Virus record (IMG/VR): IMGVR_UViG_3300008450_000406
Coordinates: 1-25,263 of that record
Direction: 5' to 3' (one strand)
Origin: a virus
Length of the DNA: 25,263 nucleotides
The translations under genes were made by a program, and so were the position numbers. The notes below the pieces were generated by a model. That model saw only the letters and a list, made by a program, of their open reading frames with translations, made no database searches and was not told where the DNA came from. This document shows, one piece after another, positions 590-16,378 of the stretch. Position 1 is the stretch's first letter; every line of letters starts with the position of its first letter.

Positions 590-991
590 CTATTCGCACC
601 AGGATTGTTTCGCATCGCCCTTGTACGGACGGGCAAGGCCCGCAGAGATCAGGCTTTCGGCTAGGCTCTGGTGGTCCAAGTAGACATCGCCCAGCACACG
701 GCCACCATACTTATCCCACTTCAAGATCTGCACATCGATCTCCGTGGCATTGGCGACCGCGTCTTTTGTAAACGCGCTGGCTTTCTTAGCCAAGGCGGCC
801 TCGGCATCGCATTGAGCGCGAGGTGCTTTCTCAGGCGTATCTATGCCGATGACCCTGATCGACAGCTTGGGCGGCAGAGGCTCTGGCAGAAAGTCCACCG
901 CGATCTCTACCGTGTCGCCATCGATCACGCGGGTGATCTCATAGGCATGAGCAGGCGCAGCCGTCAGCAGGAGCAGGGCCAGCCATTTCAT
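590..991 (-). CDS. Secreted staphylococcal-type thermonuclease (SNase fold)
   Basis: This 133-residue protein has a signal peptide (hydrophobic LALLLLTAAPAHA, likely cleaved after A16) followed by a complete SNase-like domain. The residues matching the staphylococcal nuclease active site are present: VIDGDT at 22-27 (D24, D26), R46, DTPE at 51-54 (D51, E54), and R98 in KYGGRVLG. C61 and C132 could form a disulfide after export. The predicted activity is calcium-dependent cleavage of DNA or RNA in the periplasm or medium. The start overlaps the stop of the preceding gene by four bases (ATGA), and the endolysin starts 10 bases after its stop. This context suggests a role at lysis or in degrading extracellular DNA, but the role is inference. 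Confidence 0.92.
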   Translation of the reverse strand: MKWLALLLLTAAPAHAYEITRVIDGDTVEIAVDFLPEPLPPKLSIRVIGIDTPEKAPRAQCDAEAALAKKASAFTKDAVANATEIDVQILKWDKYGGRVLGDVYLDHQSLAESLISAGLARPYKGDAKQSWCE

Positions 992-8275: not shown

Positions 8276-11200
8276 TCACTCCTGATTTTCCTCTTGAGCT
8301 TTCCTGTCTTGCAGGTCTCGATATGCCTGCGCCAAGTTAGCATACTGCGGTTCGCTCAGCAATTTTTCTAAGCCGGCATCCATAAATGCGCGGTTGAGCC
8401 TTTTGACCATTAATTTCTTTTGGTCGTCAGACGCTGCAGTGTACTCGCGAGTGAAGATCAATTGCTCCAACGACTCGCGGAAGTAGGCTACGCCGCGACC
8501 ATGAAGATTTAACGGCGTTTCGTTCTTGGCAATCCGCACCCAATCAGACTTGGCTCCGTTGCTAAGCTTGATGCCTCCGACGGTTTCAGGGTTGTTAAGT
8601 GGCCAGCCACTAGCATCTTGCGCCAGACGCATCAGCTCGCTTTCAACGACGTTCAGTTCCCGTCCTGGCTTGATGGTCATGCCGCTGGTCAAGTTCCAAA
8701 GCGCCAAGCCTGGACGCGCCCAAAAGCTTGTATCCTCTGCGCCGATCGCGTTGCCGAGCGTGTCGTACTGAATGGCGTTCAGATCTCGCTCATCGGCAAA
8801 CCTGCTATCCTGCTGCTGAAACGCACGCAAAGTAGTAAATGCCTCAAGCATCATCCTGCCAGAATCGGCCTTTGGCAGACCAATAACATCATACCTTGGG
8901 TTGCCATCTCTGTCTGTGAAGTTGGGATCGCCTGCTGCGTGAGCAGTCTCCACATCGACCATTGTGTAATACTCTACGTCGTCACGCGGTTCGACCTTTG
9001 TAGGATCAAGAGTTGTTTCAATGCTACGCTGCAAAGAACTCACAGGGCTAGGTACTCCTGCTGGAGTAGCTGCATATGCTGGGCTTTTCAAAATCCGCAT
9101 AGGATCTTGATACGAGAAGGCATCATAAAGCTGAGAAATGCCCTCCAACATTGGAAGCTCTTTGTAGTACTCAGCGACAGATCCAATCATAGCCCCAGCC
9201 ATAGTCTGAGCCTTTGTAATGTCATTTGCTGCTTTCCAGGCATCAGGTATCGAAGCGCCCAACCCGATTATGGAAGCGTAAACGCCAAAGCCCGAATAGT
9301 TGACATAGTCAAGAGGACCATTCGGTCGGCCATACTCATCGTAAAGCGGCAGAAAATCACCGTCTTGATCAACCGGGAAGTCTTTGCCACGGAAGACAAA
9401 GCTGTAAGGCTGCCAGCCAGGAGGCAGAGCCTGGCGTTCTTTTGCATCGAAAGGGGTTGAGCTTGTGATCCTGCCTTCAAGGGCCATGTTTGCAACCACG
9501 CCCATCGTCATCCCAGCCACGCTCCAACGGCCAAGCGCAAGCTGCTGCGCCTTCGGGCCGTTGTAGCCCAACATATCTTTGTACACTTGGATTCTGCCGG
9601 GGATTGGCAGTCGCTCCAAGACGCGCAGGATTTCGTTTGTTGGGGCCGTTGAGAAAGGCACGACAATCCTGCCCAGAAACGGAATTTGTTGAAACTGTGA
9701 CGCGAGCTTTCCGAGAACGCCTGCGTCCAAGGTCATGGTGTCATAGCGTGCTTTGTAGATTAGATCTTCAGACACAGCACGCGGATCAAGAAGAACCATG
9801 CCTGCTTCATCAAGAGCCTTTTGCGGATCTTCACCAGCACGCAACCCAGCCTGATAGCGCCGGTGCGCTGAAACGTACAGTTCGCCACGCTGCGAAATTG
9901 TCTTGAAGAATTCGTCTCCAGCCAGCAATGCTCGGAAACCGATTCTAGTCATTTTGCCGAAGTTGTCGATTGCACGCGCATAGAGAGTGCCACTGTTCTC
10001 TCCCGTCCACCTGATCGCGCCAACGCTGTATTCCAGCTTGTTCATCTGATCTGTCGGGATTTCTGTTCTGAAAGCTTTGCCCGCAATTTTAAATGCGTCG
10101 CTGGCACTCTCAAGCCAACCCCTTACCCGGTACATAGCATCGGCCATGTAGACCTGATCCTCGCGCAGATTGTATGGGGTATTCTTGCCTTTCACTTTTC
10201 TGATTGCTGCGCCCCAGGCTCCGGCCAACATTTCCTCTGGCAACTGCGCGGCCATGAAGCCCATCGTTCCGATGATATTTTTCGCTTGCGTTCTCGGCGA
10301 AGATAGCAAGCCAGCCAAGTAAAGCTCAGAGACAACGTCTGAGGTTCTGGCAAGAAAACCACGCTGCGACATGTCATTGATTGCTTTAAGCTTCTCACCC
10401 TCTGGGAGTTTTCCGAAGGACAAGATGCGCTCAGCCAGAGCGTCTGTCGCGTCATCAGTGCCTGAGTCGCGCAGGAAGTTTTTCGCTTCTTCGCTCAAAC
10501 GCTGGGCGTTCAGCTCACCAGACACAGGAATGCGGAAAGATTGCAGCGCACGAGCCGCTTCAGTCTGCGCACCCTTAAGCTGGAGCTGAATGCCTGCATG
10601 GATCGCAAGCTGGCGGCGGAATGCCAACCGATCGGTTGATGTAGCCGCACCCGTCTTGATCGACTCGGCCATAGTTGCCAGCTTGGTTGCGCTGCGCACA
10701 AGCAAATCTCGGGCCGCAACCATCTCTGCCGCATTCAACGAACCTTCGCCGACCTTGCGGGCAAGCAACGTGCGCGACAAGCCTATTTCATCAGCCGCAA
10801 GCTTTGCCGCGTCTTCGATCGTTGTCTTGTTGGAAATCACCCCACGGGTAACAGCAAGCTGTTGATCTTTAAGGGTTTCTGCGACAGCCGTGATGGTGGC
10901 CTTCACATCATCCGTGGTGTTCATGTAGTCGAAGTTGAAGTCACCGCCATCCTGCAGGCTCTTGATCTCCAGATCTCGCTTGGACAGAGCATCAAGAATA
11001 GGGTCGGTGATCTCTTCGGGAGCAACTGCCGTTTCGGCGCGGAAGCCTCGGGCATCAGCGGTCAGGGCTTTCTGCGCGTCGGTGCGGATAGCATTTGCGC
11101 CTTCAGCGGCCTCTGCTGCCTGCTGGTTCAGCGCGTCGGTGGCCGATTGCAGAACGTCTGGTGCCACTGGTGCCGGCGGCGCATTGACGCCTGGCGCTTG

Positions 11201-11596
11201 CATCCCACGCTCCTGAAACCGCCGCACGCCTTCCGGCGACAGCACCTGCGGTGCCAGAGCTTCCTGGGCTGCCCGCTCAGAAAAGTCTCCCATGTCAGCG
11301 AATAGCCGACGCTCATTCGGCGTAGGTATCCGCTGAACCACGCCTGCGCCAATGGTCGGACCAACAGCAGGCGCAAAGCGCGGATCTGCCATGCCCGCTC
11401 CAGACGGCGCAGCGGCTGGCGGCACTTCGCCAATCACGCTGCGGCCAAGCTTTTGCAGCAGCTCCTTGAATGCCCCACCCTGCGCGACCCGCGTCAGTTG
11501 CTCGGGCGCACCTGCAAACTCAGTTGGTGCGCCTGCAGCGTCCATAGCGGATCGCTGCATCTGCTCGGTCGAAAGCTGGTTGGGGTCGATTGCCAT
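8276..11596 (-). CDS. Large internal virion (DNA ejection) protein, gp16-like position
   Basis: This 1106-residue protein is the largest in the window and sits where podoviruses carry the gp16-type ejection protein. It looks mostly helical. The N-terminal 200 residues are Ala/Pro/Gln-rich and disordered-looking. A conserved-looking core follows, with LAGLLSSPRTQAKNIIGTMG (427-446) and RAIDNFGKMTRIGFRALLAG (541-560). Hydrophobic stretches such as LAGAWGAAI and VAGMTMGVVANMAL could insert in a membrane during ejection. I see no lysozyme or transglycosylase motif, unlike T7 gp16, so peptidoglycan cutting is not supported here. AGAGG lies seven bases before the ATG. Assignment to the ejection complex rests on size, composition and gene order. 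Confidence 0.8.
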   Translation of the reverse strand: MAIDPNQLSTEQMQRSAMDAAGAPTEFAGAPEQLTRVAQGGAFKELLQKLGRSVIGEVPPAAAPSGAGMADPRFAPAVGPTIGAGVVQRIPTPNERRLFADMGDFSERAAQEALAPQVLSPEGVRRFQERGMQAPGVNAPPAPVAPDVLQSATDALNQQAAEAAEGANAIRTDAQKALTADARGFRAETAVAPEEITDPILDALSKRDLEIKSLQDGGDFNFDYMNTTDDVKATITAVAETLKDQQLAVTRGVISNKTTIEDAAKLAADEIGLSRTLLARKVGEGSLNAAEMVAARDLLVRSATKLATMAESIKTGAATSTDRLAFRRQLAIHAGIQLQLKGAQTEAARALQSFRIPVSGELNAQRLSEEAKNFLRDSGTDDATDALAERILSFGKLPEGEKLKAINDMSQRGFLARTSDVVSELYLAGLLSSPRTQAKNIIGTMGFMAAQLPEEMLAGAWGAAIRKVKGKNTPYNLREDQVYMADAMYRVRGWLESASDAFKIAGKAFRTEIPTDQMNKLEYSVGAIRWTGENSGTLYARAIDNFGKMTRIGFRALLAGDEFFKTISQRGELYVSAHRRYQAGLRAGEDPQKALDEAGMVLLDPRAVSEDLIYKARYDTMTLDAGVLGKLASQFQQIPFLGRIVVPFSTAPTNEILRVLERLPIPGRIQVYKDMLGYNGPKAQQLALGRWSVAGMTMGVVANMALEGRITSSTPFDAKERQALPPGWQPYSFVFRGKDFPVDQDGDFLPLYDEYGRPNGPLDYVNYSGFGVYASIIGLGASIPDAWKAANDITKAQTMAGAMIGSVAEYYKELPMLEGISQLYDAFSYQDPMRILKSPAYAATPAGVPSPVSSLQRSIETTLDPTKVEPRDDVEYYTMVDVETAHAAGDPNFTDRDGNPRYDVIGLPKADSGRMMLEAFTTLRAFQQQDSRFADERDLNAIQYDTLGNAIGAEDTSFWARPGLALWNLTSGMTIKPGRELNVVESELMRLAQDASGWPLNNPETVGGIKLSNGAKSDWVRIAKNETPLNLHGRGVAYFRESLEQLIFTREYTAASDDQKKLMVKRLNRAFMDAGLEKLLSEPQYANLAQAYRDLQDRKAQEENQE

Positions 11597-11609: not shown

Positions 11610-11798
11610 TTACTTCTTGCGGAACTGCTCGGGCAGCTCTTCCTCTAGCTCAGACCCAAAGATCTCAGGCGCTTCGCCAAAGTATGCGAGTTCAATGTAT
11701 TGCTCGCGGGTCATGGGCAAATTGAACTTACGCATGACCGCAAGAATACCGTCACTGTTGTTCCCAGGTTGGGGGCCGGATACCGCCTGCTCGCTCAC
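11610..11798 (-). CDS. Small acidic protein between ejection-protein genes
   Basis: This 62-residue protein starts at GTG 11798, supported by a strong AAGGAG SD eight bases upstream. That start makes the first 47 bases overlap the end of the 774-residue gene in another frame. An ATG at 11735 would avoid the overlap but lacks comparable SD support. The C-terminal half is distinctive (MTREQYIELAYFGEAPEIFG, then an acidic ELEEELPEQFRKK). I recall short proteins with a similar acidic ending near virion-protein genes of marine podoviruses, with no known function. A role as a chaperone or minor virion part is possible. The next gene starts 13 bases after its stop. Confidence 0.78.
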   Translation of the reverse strand: MSEQAVSGPQPGNNSDGILAVMRKFNLPMTREQYIELAYFGEAPEIFGSELEEELPEQFRKK

Positions 11799-14076
11799 TT
11801 ACCAAACTCCTTGCCTCGTCAATTTCAATTTCGCCGTTGCGGTATCTTGTCCAGATCGCATCGACATCGGCATTGTTCTTTGCGGTCTTGAACGTGTCAG
11901 GGAATAGGCCACGCACCGCTTCCCATGTGATAGACTGCATCTGCCGTGGGAGTATACCACGCTCTGCAGCCGCGCGTCGATACGCCTCTGCGTACAAACC
12001 GTAGTTGCCAGACATGCCTGTGGTCGAGGAGCCTTTTGTCGTGCCTCGCCCAGCAACGCTGATGTTCTTGAAGTTGTGATCGACCTCAAGAGAGTTGCCG
12101 GATAGCGGGCGCATCAAACCTGCGGCTACAGCGTGCGTGTCGATCGTCACATCGCCATACGGCGAGTTGGGGTCATAGATGTTGTTGTAGAAGTTTCTGA
12201 CCTTGTGGCGCTCGCCCATCAAGCGCGAGATCGTGTTGACATCGCCATTCGATTCAATCGCACCGATAGCCTTGCCGATCTCGTTCAGCGAACCCCAAGC
12301 CACGCGAGAGGCCGATCCGTCTGCATTGCGTGCAACATCCAAGAAGTCACCTTCTGGAGACACAACCCGATAGTCAGGGATCTTGTAGGTTTGGTCGTGC
12401 AGACGGACGAACAAAGCACGCAGCGTATTTTGAACCGCCGGATCTGGGTCGGTGATCTGATTATACGACTTGCCCTTGATGGCCTGCAGCAAAGGTTCGT
12501 ACTTGGGTTTGTTCAAAGATTCGATGCCTCTGAACGTGGCTTCCATTTCAGAGGTGAACGATGTCGGCGTATTGCCCTTTGGCTTGATGACATCAAGCAC
12601 TCGCTCGGCCAAGCTCACATTCTGATACCAATCTTTTTGCGGAGACAGTGCCGCAAGTGCGCCAGCAATTGAGGTGTCTGGCACGCCATAATCTTTTGAC
12701 CAGCGCTCAGTGATGTTGCGTGCGCCGTCGTACCAGAGCTGGCTGCGCGTGCGGGTGTCTTCTGGCACTTGATCGTGCAGATAGAGCAGGTTGTCCTTCA
12801 CATGCGTGATGAACTGCTCTGCGGTTTCTTCCGTTGTTGCGTCGGGAGCGGGCCGCATATTCGGGTAATCTCTGGTGATGCCGACGTTGTAGTCAAACAG
12901 CTTCGGCTCTTTCTTCAGCTCCTCCAAACCGACAACCAGTGTGCCGGTCATCGGGTCTTCTTGAGCTTTCATAGCCGTTGGGAAGCGGGTTGAGATGCGA
13001 CCAGGCAATCCACCTTGGATCGCGCCAGTGCCATCAACAGCCGCAGCTCCCAAGCTTTGCGGCGTGCCGGCAGGCTGGAAGATCTCCATCAGCATGTCCT
13101 TGTCGCCTTGGGCGATGGCACGGCTGGTGCCGATCGCGTCGGCAAGCATGTTCTTTGCGAAAGGGGACGCCTCTCGCAACAAGTTTTTAGCAGGATCGGT
13201 CAGGCCATTAATAAGTGGCACGAATTCAGCAACGCCAAGTGTCGTTAGACCAATCCCGATTGCCGCATCAATCGCACCGACCTTCATCATGTTTGTGTCG
13301 CCAGATGCGATACCATCGCTGATCATCTTGTAGCCAGAATTGAAGGTGCGAGCGCCCTCGTCTACGGTTTCTGCCCCGCCATACGCAGGGACCGTGACAC
13401 CTGCGAAATCGGTAAAGAGTTTGGAAAACGCACGGACATCGCTTGGGTCGTCTAGGTTTTCTTGGCCAATTATGCTTTGCAATGCTGAACTGATCGCATC
13501 GCCAATAGCTCCAGTAGGCTCTCGGTTGGGGTCGAGCGTGTTGAAAATTACGCCCTGCACGCCCTCACGCAAACTTGTTTCCCGTGGCATTACCATCTCA
13601 GCGCCAGGCTGCTGCGCATACTGCGCCATCTGATCTGGCGTCAGCTTCATCGCATTAAGGATGTTGGGCTGCGCCATGTATTGCTCATTGCGGGATTTCT
13701 CATACTGCAAAATTTCTGCTTGAGAATACCCAGCCATGTCATAGTCGTCAAAACTTGGATCTTTGCCGCCAATATTGCTGGGATTGCTCTTAAAGTTTTT
13801 TGAAAAAGTATCGATGTCTTCTGAAGCTGGAACGGCTGCGGCAACCGCAGCATCCGTCTCTACCATTTGCTTCGGCGTCACAAGCCGATCGCCCACGCGC
13901 ATCCTGCCGCCAGACGGCAGATCAATGTAAACCGACTCCGTGTTGCGGTTGGGGTTGCTGACAACGTAACCACCACGCACGTTATTGATTGAAACGCCTG
14001 AGTATGCCTTGATTCGAGCCGCTTCATTGTAGCGGGTCATCTCAAGGTCGGTGTCATTGTTCAGCGTGTAAGCCAT
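11752..14076 (-). CDS. Large virion protein with C-terminal endonuclease III/HhH-GPD-like motifs
   Basis: This 774-residue protein lies in the block of internal virion proteins and is probably ejected with the DNA. Residues 1-380 look virion-like, with a hydrophobic stretch near 266-290 (AIDAAIGIGLTTLGVAEFVP). The C-terminal part differs. ALSPQKDWYQN (476-486) resembles the LSAQATDVSVN helix of endonuclease III, HKVRNFYNNI (624-633) sits where a helix-hairpin-helix is expected, and VTIDTHAV (643-650) resembles the catalytic VDTH of HhH-GPD glycosylases, with D646 as the candidate acid. NYGLYAEAYRRAAAERG (691-707) and QSITWEAVR follow. The spacing between motifs is about 70 residues longer than in endonuclease III, so there would be an insertion. 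The fold and activity are inference. The start overlaps the previous stop by one base, with GGGGA upstream. Confidence 0.83.
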   Translation of the reverse strand: MAYTLNNDTDLEMTRYNEAARIKAYSGVSINNVRGGYVVSNPNRNTESVYIDLPSGGRMRVGDRLVTPKQMVETDAAVAAAVPASEDIDTFSKNFKSNPSNIGGKDPSFDDYDMAGYSQAEILQYEKSRNEQYMAQPNILNAMKLTPDQMAQYAQQPGAEMVMPRETSLREGVQGVIFNTLDPNREPTGAIGDAISSALQSIIGQENLDDPSDVRAFSKLFTDFAGVTVPAYGGAETVDEGARTFNSGYKMISDGIASGDTNMMKVGAIDAAIGIGLTTLGVAEFVPLINGLTDPAKNLLREASPFAKNMLADAIGTSRAIAQGDKDMLMEIFQPAGTPQSLGAAAVDGTGAIQGGLPGRISTRFPTAMKAQEDPMTGTLVVGLEELKKEPKLFDYNVGITRDYPNMRPAPDATTEETAEQFITHVKDNLLYLHDQVPEDTRTRSQLWYDGARNITERWSKDYGVPDTSIAGALAALSPQKDWYQNVSLAERVLDVIKPKGNTPTSFTSEMEATFRGIESLNKPKYEPLLQAIKGKSYNQITDPDPAVQNTLRALFVRLHDQTYKIPDYRVVSPEGDFLDVARNADGSASRVAWGSLNEIGKAIGAIESNGDVNTISRLMGERHKVRNFYNNIYDPNSPYGDVTIDTHAVAAGLMRPLSGNSLEVDHNFKNISVAGRGTTKGSSTTGMSGNYGLYAEAYRRAAAERGILPRQMQSITWEAVRGLFPDTFKTAKNNADVDAIWTRYRNGEIEIDEARSLVSERAGGIRPPTWEQQ

Positions 14077-15845
14077 TACTGGTTCCCCATCATTTGCATC
14101 ATGTAGATGATCTCACCCTTAACGCTATTGTAAACACTGGTTTGCGCCTGTGTCGGCTCTGGGAGGAGTGAAGAGTACCATGCCTCAAGAGATTGCAGCT
14201 CGTTGCCTGGGGGAAAGTCTGGAATATTGCCAGCAATGAACCTGTGCGATTGATCCTGAAGGTATTCCTGCAACTGATTTTGCAATTTGACTCGGAATGT
14301 GACCATGCGCTCTTCGATAAGCTGCTGCGCGAGCTGCGAAGTCTCTTCGCGTGTCATCCTGTCGCCCTCAGATATTCTGCGGTTTGTCTCTTCCCGAAGC
14401 TTAGAGCTGACATAAAACCATGCAGCTTCAGCTTCTTTCGATGCAGCATCATTAGCGCCTGCAGCCTTGTTGTACCTAAAGGCTGCAGCCACCTGATCAT
14501 CGACCGCACGAAAGGCTTCGTCCGCCTCGGTTTGGATACTAGCGGTCAGTTCTTTCCAATCCTTCAACGTCAGGTCACCCTGTGATGCGTTGAGAGTGGC
14601 TTGGGTCAAGTTGCCGGTGTCCGCCTTTTGGATCAAGGACGCATAAACACTTGGGTTTGTTTCAGCAGCAAACGGGCCAAGAGTGTTGGGGTTCTTGTGC
14701 GTGTCAAGGCTCTTGCGCTGCTCTTGGCTCATGGCGTTGCGGCTATCTAATATCCTGGTAACCACATCAAGATATTGCTTGCCATTGATCTCCTTAGACG
14801 GGTCAATGTTAAAAAGCTGCAAGTCTTTTGCCGTCATCATCCCAACAAGACGAGCCGTGAGATCTGCACTGGCTTCCGCAGTGACAGAAACGCCAAACGC
14901 TGAATTGTACAGATCGCCATTTTGCTTAGTGACGCGAGCCTCAAATTCAGTGCGCATCTCGTCAAGCGCACCATCGATCTTGTTGGCATTGGTCAGCGCT
15001 TCGCCAAGCGCCTTTGTCGCAATGTCTGGTCTGGCCATGCCAAGAACGGTCAGAGTGTAAGCACCATCAGGTCCAAGACCAGAGAGTTCTGCAGCTTCTT
15101 CAGCGGTCATTTCTCCAGCATTAACCAGCGCTTGATACTCAAGAGCAGCGGCAAGTGATAAGGCCTTGCTAGGATCTCCGCCAACGTAACCAAGTGTCAC
15201 GTTGTCAACGATCTTATTGAGCATCTCCGTATTCACAACCGCCGCCACTTCTGGCGATATAATCCCAGCGCGGATGTCCGACTCGGTCTCAACTGTTTGA
15301 GCAGTCAAAAGCATGGAAGCCATTTCTGCGTTCGTGCGGGGATCGCTAAGGGTATTGACCAATTCATCCTGCCGAGCTTTTGAAGCAGCAGCGGCTCTGG
15401 CCTTGATGTTAGATTCAACAGCATCGCGCAACTGGAACCGCATGGTTAGTTCTTGCTGGTTGAAGCGGGCGTTGAATGCGTCCGTCATCGATCGGCTGGA
15501 CAATCCATCCGTCAGGCGATCACGCATTTCCTTGATCGAAACCTGCCAAGCGCCCGTGCCTTTTTCGTTTAGAACGTCTCCGAGACGCGAGCTTTCTTTC
15601 AGGCTATCGGCAAGATTGCGCATCTGCTCTTCAGCGCCAAGCAGTGCTTCATTGTACTCAATCTTGGCCTCCGCTTCGGCCCGAGCCAGAGCGTACTTAT
15701 TCACCTGGGTGAAAGCTTCCCCAAGCACTTCACCCTTGCGCAGCTCTGCCTGCACAAAGACGTTGGGGTCCATTCGCGCCCTGATGCTTGCGCCAGGCGC
15801 TTCTGATGTTGCGGCAGCTTCAGAGCGGAAGACCGGGATGCGCAT
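14076..15845 (-). CDS. Internal virion protein, helical, gp15-like position
   Basis: This 589-residue protein is predicted to be almost wholly helical, rich in Ala, Glu, Leu and Arg (for example QVNKYALARAEAEAKIEYN and VKLQNQLQEYLQDQSHRF). It has no signal peptide, membrane segment or enzyme motif that I can see. Its place after the gp14-like gene and before two larger virion proteins matches the gp15 slot in T7-type phages, where such proteins form part of the ejected channel. EMTAEEAAELSGLGPDGAYT in the middle is a helical linker of unknown meaning. The ATG follows the previous stop by three bases, and an AGG SD overlaps that stop. Assignment is by position and composition, not by a recognised domain. 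Confidence 0.8.
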   Translation of the reverse strand: MRIPVFRSEAAATSEAPGASIRARMDPNVFVQAELRKGEVLGEAFTQVNKYALARAEAEAKIEYNEALLGAEEQMRNLADSLKESSRLGDVLNEKGTGAWQVSIKEMRDRLTDGLSSRSMTDAFNARFNQQELTMRFQLRDAVESNIKARAAAASKARQDELVNTLSDPRTNAEMASMLLTAQTVETESDIRAGIISPEVAAVVNTEMLNKIVDNVTLGYVGGDPSKALSLAAALEYQALVNAGEMTAEEAAELSGLGPDGAYTLTVLGMARPDIATKALGEALTNANKIDGALDEMRTEFEARVTKQNGDLYNSAFGVSVTAEASADLTARLVGMMTAKDLQLFNIDPSKEINGKQYLDVVTRILDSRNAMSQEQRKSLDTHKNPNTLGPFAAETNPSVYASLIQKADTGNLTQATLNASQGDLTLKDWKELTASIQTEADEAFRAVDDQVAAAFRYNKAAGANDAASKEAEAAWFYVSSKLREETNRRISEGDRMTREETSQLAQQLIEERMVTFRVKLQNQLQEYLQDQSHRFIAGNIPDFPPGNELQSLEAWYSSLLPEPTQAQTSVYNSVKGEIIYMMQMMGNQ

Positions 15846-15848
15846 GGA

Positions 15849-16370
15849 TTACCTGCCAAACAGTTTATATTCGTAGCCAATCTGAGCAGCTTGGCCGACC
15901 GAGCCGATCAGGCTTGCCGTTCCTGCTGCGCGTAGCCCAGACGCCTGAGCCTGACCGCCCATGCGGGAAAGCTCCGCATTCAGTCTGGCCGACTCTTGCT
16001 CGTCTGAGATCTGCATGTTCGTAATCTCTTTGTTGAACTCGGCCACATCCTGTTCATACTGGAATTCGCGAGCATTCTCACGCAGTATTTGCAGCGGAGA
16101 GCCTTGAGAAATGTCAAATCCGGCAAAGCCAAAGCCAGCCCGCACTGCGCCCTGCACGTCTCTCTCAAACGCTTTCTTGCTGCGCTCAGCTTGGGTCAGG
16201 AAGTTTGCATTGAAGATCTGGCGCTGACGCTCAAGCAGGTCGATGTCGCGCTCAATGATCTTGGCATTGAACTCGCCCGCACGCTGCGCTGCCGCAGCGG
16301 CCTTGTCAGATGAGCGCTTGGCTTGCGCCCCACCAAGCAGGGAGGCTCCAAGGGCTAAGATCTGGAACAT
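15849..16370 (-). CDS. Internal virion protein, gp14-like
   Basis: This 173-residue protein has a hydrophobic N-terminus (MFQILALGASLLGGAQA), a long Ala/Arg/Glu-rich helix, and a central GFDISQGSPLQILRENA segment. The G-x-SPL-x-IL pattern recurs in small internal virion proteins of podoviruses. The C-terminus is Gly/Ala-rich (GLRAAGTASLIGSVGQAAQIG), which could act as a second membrane-active helix, as expected for the gp14-type protein that makes the outer-membrane pore during ejection. The ATG at 16370 has GAGG six bases upstream, overlapping the stop of the gene before. A GTG at 16373 would have too short a spacing. Confidence 0.82.
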   Translation of the reverse strand: MFQILALGASLLGGAQAKRSSDKAAAAAQRAGEFNAKIIERDIDLLERQRQIFNANFLTQAERSKKAFERDVQGAVRAGFGFAGFDISQGSPLQILRENAREFQYEQDVAEFNKEITNMQISDEQESARLNAELSRMGGQAQASGLRAAGTASLIGSVGQAAQIGYEYKLFGR

Positions 16371-16378
16371 CACTCACC

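Follow-up and report, generated by a model that had tools for sequence, protein, structure and literature searches.

A predicted OGG-type DNA glycosylase domain in a probable ejection protein of a T7-like podovirus

What would a domain resembling a DNA repair enzyme be doing in a protein encoded among the internal virion genes of a phage? The question arises from a 25-kb piece of a T7-like podovirus (IMG/VR record IMGVR_UViG_3300008450_000406; the whole stretch analysed, 25,263 nucleotides, is hereafter called the window), in which the initial annotation had recognized, in the C-terminal part of a 774-aa protein, three motifs ordered as in endonuclease III. All three lie where they had been reported, and the numbering of D646 and H648 is correct. 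The gene and the elements of its domain are the following:

11752..14076, minus strand: gene of the 774-aa protein, whose C-terminal half is glycosylase-like (open reading frame; DUF7178; phrog_3842)
11905..12834, minus strand: DUF7178/OGG-like HhH-GPD domain, residues ~415-724 (AlphaFold pLDDT 94.3, helix order, Foldseek link)
12619..12651, minus strand: ALSPQKDWYQN, residues 476-486, corresponding to LSAQATDVSVN of endonuclease III
12292..12585, minus strand: fused-clade insertion, residues ~498-595, made of helices plus a beta hairpin (model and alignment)
12190..12222, minus strand: helix-hairpin-helix LMGERHKVRNF, residues 619-629 (hhalign and conservation)
12202-12204, minus strand: K625, predicted Schiff-base lysine, within LMGERHKVRNF
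12190-12192, minus strand: F629, predicted base-stacking residue, within LMGERHKVRNF
12127..12150, minus strand: VTIDTHAV, residues 643-650 (hhalign and conservation; OGG counterparts)
12139-12141, minus strand: D646, predicted catalytic residue, within VTIDTHAV
within VTIDTHAV, minus strand: H648, predicted phosphate-contacting residue (OGG counterparts)
12004..12114, minus strand: second clade-specific insertion, residues ~655-691 (alignment)
11917..11940, minus strand: MQSITWEA, residues 713-720, with Q714 and W718 (OGG counterparts, conservation)

The motifs are almost invariant across the family alignment, including S478 and N486 within ALSPQKDWYQN. Their spacing exceeds that of endonuclease III because of the clade-specific insertion in residues ~498-595; the initial annotation had proposed either an insertion or a convergent match, and the former is what we found, since ~80 residues are present only in the fused clade (relatives in which the domain is part of a longer protein, as here) and absent from free-standing relatives.

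The 774-aa protein matches the Pfam family DUF7178 (PF23802) with an E-value of 8e-27 and 94.8 bits, for a curated cut-off of 27 bits, as well as phrog_3842 (E 1e-27), two families that carry an “unknown function” label in Pfam and PHROGs. The protein has no match to Pfam HhH-GPD (PF00730) at E<=1, a match that is common in this superfamily but that divergent members may lack, and no direct match to known glycosylase families in Pfam or NCBIfam; phmmer with the whole protein against the PDB gave none either. The HhH-GPD link is, thus, visible only via profile-profile and fold comparison. Fused-type relatives number 381 in one IMG/VR scan, and an alignment-based IMG/VR scan returned at least about 600 relatives. 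The DUF7178/phrog_3842 phage proteins are direct homologues of our domain, but most are free-standing rather than part of a virion protein, and their function is itself a prediction; these free-standing proteins of ~200 aa occur in cyanophages, roseophages (SIO1 gp9), Celeribacter phage P12053L, and many actinophages. A few of them already bear a depositor's label of “glycosylase” or “N-glycosylase/DNA lyase”, so that the superfamily idea has some precedent. We found no paper mentioning DUF7178 in the literature searched, and searches for 8-oxoG glycosylases of phages or for glycosylases carried in virions gave nothing relevant.

The AlphaFold model of residues 360-774 (model residue n is protein residue n+359) has a mean pLDDT of 94.3 from 57 sequences. 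Foldseek of this domain, insertions included, against the PDB was weak, the best relevant match being AGOG at a probability of 0.54; in BFVD, the same model matches free-standing phage members (S-CBP42 G8EYE9, E 8e-6; Tefunt, E 7.5e-5). Because the fused clade carries two insertions and its PDB match is weak, we repeated the comparison with a free-standing member that lacks them, P12053L gp02 (pLDDT 96.2, from 71 sequences), whose ten helices recur in the same order in the model of the 774-aa domain. Its ranks 1-38 against the PDB are all HhH-GPD glycosylases, 37 of OGG type and one endonuclease III, and the first unrelated protein comes at rank 39 with a probability of 0.08. The top four matches have probabilities of 0.99-1.00 and TM values of 0.52-0.56, with OGG2, AGOG, and OGG1 as best matches (MjOgg 0.99-1.00, AGOG 0.99, SsOgg 0.98, TmOgg 0.97, hOGG1/mOGG1 up to 0.97). 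One has to keep in mind that no Foldseek E-value against the PDB was below 0.001 for either model (best 0.046); with values above 0.04 for P12053L gp02, the glycosylase call draws on the consistency of the matches in addition to their score. The predicted fold of the free-standing member is nonetheless of the HhH-GPD kind that the initial annotation had called for.

Comparisons made without structure prediction point the same way. Searching 177,635 PDB sequences with the DUF7178 profile gave seven matches at E<10, six of which are 8-oxoguanine glycosylases (best E 0.0058); in the HMMER alignment of the family with OGG2, the hairpin is offset by one residue, which makes the lysine pairing inexact. 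With hhalign, the free-standing family aligned to an endonuclease III/MutY set with a score of 32.3 (P 3.5e-4, for a probability of only 37%), while 149 column shuffles had a mean of 12.1, a standard deviation of 2.1, and a maximum of 23.1, and the reversed alignment scored 13.0. This alignment pairs the family lysine with endonuclease III K120 and the family aspartate with D138, as does a smaller alignment. Scores in the MutY direction were weak, and the fused-clade alignment was uninformative against endonuclease III, probably because family-specific insertions and shallow diversity dominate it. The E. coli endonuclease III sequence that we used aligns over nearly its full length with the bacterial orthologues retrieved. 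The fold, the PDB profile search, and the profile-profile alignment, thus, agree in support of placing the family among the HhH-GPD DNA glycosylases, closest to OGG2, AGOG, and OGG1. The HhH-GPD reading of the endonuclease III-like motifs holds; endonuclease III as nearest kin does not, the OGG-type enzymes being closer.

Ten columns are invariant in 71 free-standing members: G23, W26, Y27, S56, K118, F122, D135, Q183, A184, and W187. Five of them (K118, F122, D135, Q183, and W187) correspond to K625, F629, D646, Q714, and W718 of the 774-aa protein, which are invariant wherever covered in 37 fused and 71 free-standing sequences, one fused sequence ending before Q714. They occupy the positions of hOGG1 K249, C253, D268, Q315, and F319, a mapping made after the fold matches were known and, therefore, not a formal statistical test. 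The family, as judged from its alignments, holds a lysine, an aromatic residue at K+4, an aspartate, a glutamine, and a tryptophan at Q+4 in the OGG arrangement. D646, proposed from the start as the catalytic acid, is conserved in 108/108 sequences and aligned to endonuclease III D138, in keeping with the predicted role. K625, at the second HhH helix, had not been named by the initial annotation, which asked only whether a lysine was conserved; it is present in 108/108 and predicts AP-lyase activity. H648 was expected to be conserved as well: it is a histidine in 37/37 fused proteins, but His or Trp (44/27) in free-standing ones, since the D+2 residue alternates between the two as in OGG enzymes. 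Indeed, hOGG1 contacts the phosphate with a His after the Asp (H270), and CacOGG1 with a Trp (W243) (PMC3397491).

The pocket residues can be read against known structures. In AGOG, 8-oxoG is sandwiched by F146 (the catalytic K142 + 4) and W212 (D208 + 4), with contacts that include K142 and D174 (PMC9638937). hOGG1 uses F319 and Q315, with K249 and C253 as its K and K+4 pair, while OGG2 and AGOG use W198/W222, D194/D218 replacing Q315 (PMC3397491). In our family, the base-stacking aromatic of Q714-x3-W718 stands four residues past the Gln/Asp reader and is invariant where aligned. OGG2 (MjOgg 3FHF/3KNT, SsOgg 3FHG, TmOgg 3N0U) gives the best fold and profile matches: it shares a compact all-helical domain devoid of the OGG1 A-domain, the catalytic K and D, and the Trp at the base-stacking position, but identity is 12-14%, the family has Q where OGG2 has D194, and the 774-aa protein adds two insertions and an attached virion protein. 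AGOG (Pa-AGOG 1XQP), matched by the free-standing member at a probability of 0.99, shares the aromatic sandwich of F (K+4) and W, like Pab-AGOG F146/W212; its HhH differs, however, and its K-D gap is 32 residues versus 21 here and 17 in the P12053L protein. With hOGG1, the likeness lies in the Q315/F319 pair (Q714/W718) and in the D+2 His (H270), the His/Trp alternation of the family paralleling hOGG1 H270/CacOGG1 W243, although the N-terminal beta A-domain of OGG1 is missing from the family. Endonuclease III (Nth) has the LSxQ...N, KA, HhH-K, and VDTH motifs in the same order, with K120 and D138 as counterparts, but the family fold is closer to OGG; the C-terminal cysteines of its 4Fe-4S cluster were found neither in the family alignment nor in the 774-aa protein. 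Since the counterpart of the N7-H reader of 8-oxoG (OGG1 G42, AGOG Q24, the OGG2 C-terminal K207) was not located in the DUF7178 family, any specificity for 8-oxoG is tentative.

The genomic setting of the gene bears on where such an enzyme would act. The minus strand reads, in order, terminase, head-tail connector (portal position), scaffold/protease-like, major head protein, tail tube A, tail tube B, gp14-like, 589-aa, 774-aa, 1106-aa, and tail fibre genes, the immediate neighbours being:

15849..16373, minus strand: T7 gp14-like internal virion protein gene (phrog_418; T7_gp14 below cut-off, E 1.8e-4)
14076..15845, minus strand: 589-aa protein of the ejection block, syntenic (no known family)
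8276..11596, minus strand: 1106-aa internal virion protein (phrog_6651; synteny)

The 589-aa protein matches no Pfam family above cut-off and no PHROG, and is strictly syntenic in relatives. The order from tail tube A to the fibre is kept in dozens of relatives, and a second clade has the domain gene in the same place without recognisable genes for the gp14-like and 589-aa proteins. The 774-aa protein is, thus, probably an ejection (internal virion) protein, its gene position being what points to packaging and injection. Elsewhere in the window, an SNase-like gene (PF00565, E 1.7e-12; 593-991, minus strand) adjoins the lysis gene.

In other phages, the domain is found inside proteins of 542 aa to 3,120 aa, encoded between portal and head genes in the two cases read, and some relatives carry fused ART-PolyVal, inorganic pyrophosphatase (InPase), methyltransferase, or LPD22 domains. 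In a tree of the shared core, the window-type fused sequences form one clade (support 0.999), and the fusions L371 (0.952) and L325 (0.852) are placed elsewhere; the fusion, therefore, probably arose more than once. The ART-PolyVal, InPase, and LPD22 domains recall the polyvalent proteins, multidomain phage proteins proposed to act early in infection (PMC5512222); the word “glycosylase” is absent from the text of that paper.

Alongside the family membership, predicted fold, conserved active-site positions, and gene position reported above, we consider it fairly probable that the C-terminal half of the 774-aa protein is a bifunctional OGG-type glycosylase/AP lyase that is packaged and injected. 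In this reading, the domain would flip a damaged or modified purine into its pocket, where the base would be sandwiched by F629 and W718 and recognised by Q714; K625, aided by D646, would then attack C1', releasing the base, and cleave at the abasic site. Packaged alongside the other internal virion proteins, the protein would enter the cell together with the genome and act there on the incoming phage DNA or, as infection starts, on host DNA. The more likely use seems to be repair of guanine oxidised in the incoming DNA: it is the simplest one for viruses exposed in water, and the free-standing domain in other marine phages would fit. This would suggest a base-excision enzyme inside the particles of some phages, making repair of their own DNA versus attack on host bases a testable matter. 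It also provides a family listed as unknown by Pfam and PHROGs with a predicted fold, active site, and activity; members are spread among cyanophages, roseophages, actinophages, and numerous podoviruses recovered from environmental samples. Both fold and chemistry are already known; in the sources searched, we found described neither the placement of DUF7178 in the OGG branch, active site included, nor its presence in ejection-block proteins.

The enzyme could also be active with another specificity and serve offence or counter-defence, excising a modified or normal purine of the host or a base that marks DNA for attack. The company of ART, InPase, and LPD domains, as in polyvalent proteins, and the missing OGG N7-H reader would suit such a role; the conserved pocket residues are, however, those of 8-oxoG enzymes, and many phages encode the family as a separate protein, which could also be the case for a repair enzyme, so that we hold this role to be unlikely. 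We are just as doubtful of its broadest form, in which a large group of aquatic podoviruses would inject a virion OGG-type glycosylase/AP lyase against host guanines or a defence-related base at entry; if true, base excision would be a weapon of infection, not repair. Less likely still is a catalytically dead HhH-GPD fold that would only bind or bend DNA, for example by organising the genome end in the core or guiding ejection. The domain does sit in a probable structural protein, and HhH elements bind DNA non-specifically, but one would expect a module that only binds DNA to have lost some of the catalytic K and D and the pocket F, Q, and W, which are invariant in 108 sequences, free-standing early genes included. 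HhH-fold pyrophosphorylases with glycosylase-like chemistry have been proposed in hypermodified phages, and the phage setting could, thus, suggest a base-modification enzyme; we give this very little credit, as no modification genes were recognised in the 25-kb window and the conserved residues match OGG down to the Schiff-base lysine. Convergence of motifs in an unrelated helical virion protein, to which the weak whole-domain Foldseek result against the PDB could point, was the least probable of all and was rejected, as the free-standing fold, the PDB profile search, and the profile-profile alignment agree independently.

Some further members of the family deserve mention. Roseobacter phage CRP-738, for one, has a homologue. 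The free-standing gene lies near a thymidylate synthase gene in SIO1 and P12053L (ThyX in the latter, where it is near the start of the record). In Tunturiibacter phage Tunturi_3 (L209:2959-3555), a free-standing DUF7178 is labelled “portal protein”, probably a misannotation, and a ~3,100-aa protein of Rhodobacteraceae phage LS06-2018-MD07 labelled only “methyltransferase” contains DUF7178. A ~2,040-aa protein of virus Rctr197k (L174) seems to hold a tandem DUF7178 pair, the second copy keeping QAxTW without the LSP motif, and on a 138-kb virus contig (G021, L110), two genes, for proteins of 546 aa and 754 aa, each have a DUF7178 domain of fused type. Lastly, a fused-type copy on a Jannaschia seohaensis contig (L176), in a Rhodobacteraceae genome and perhaps in a prophage, points to alphaproteobacterial hosts.
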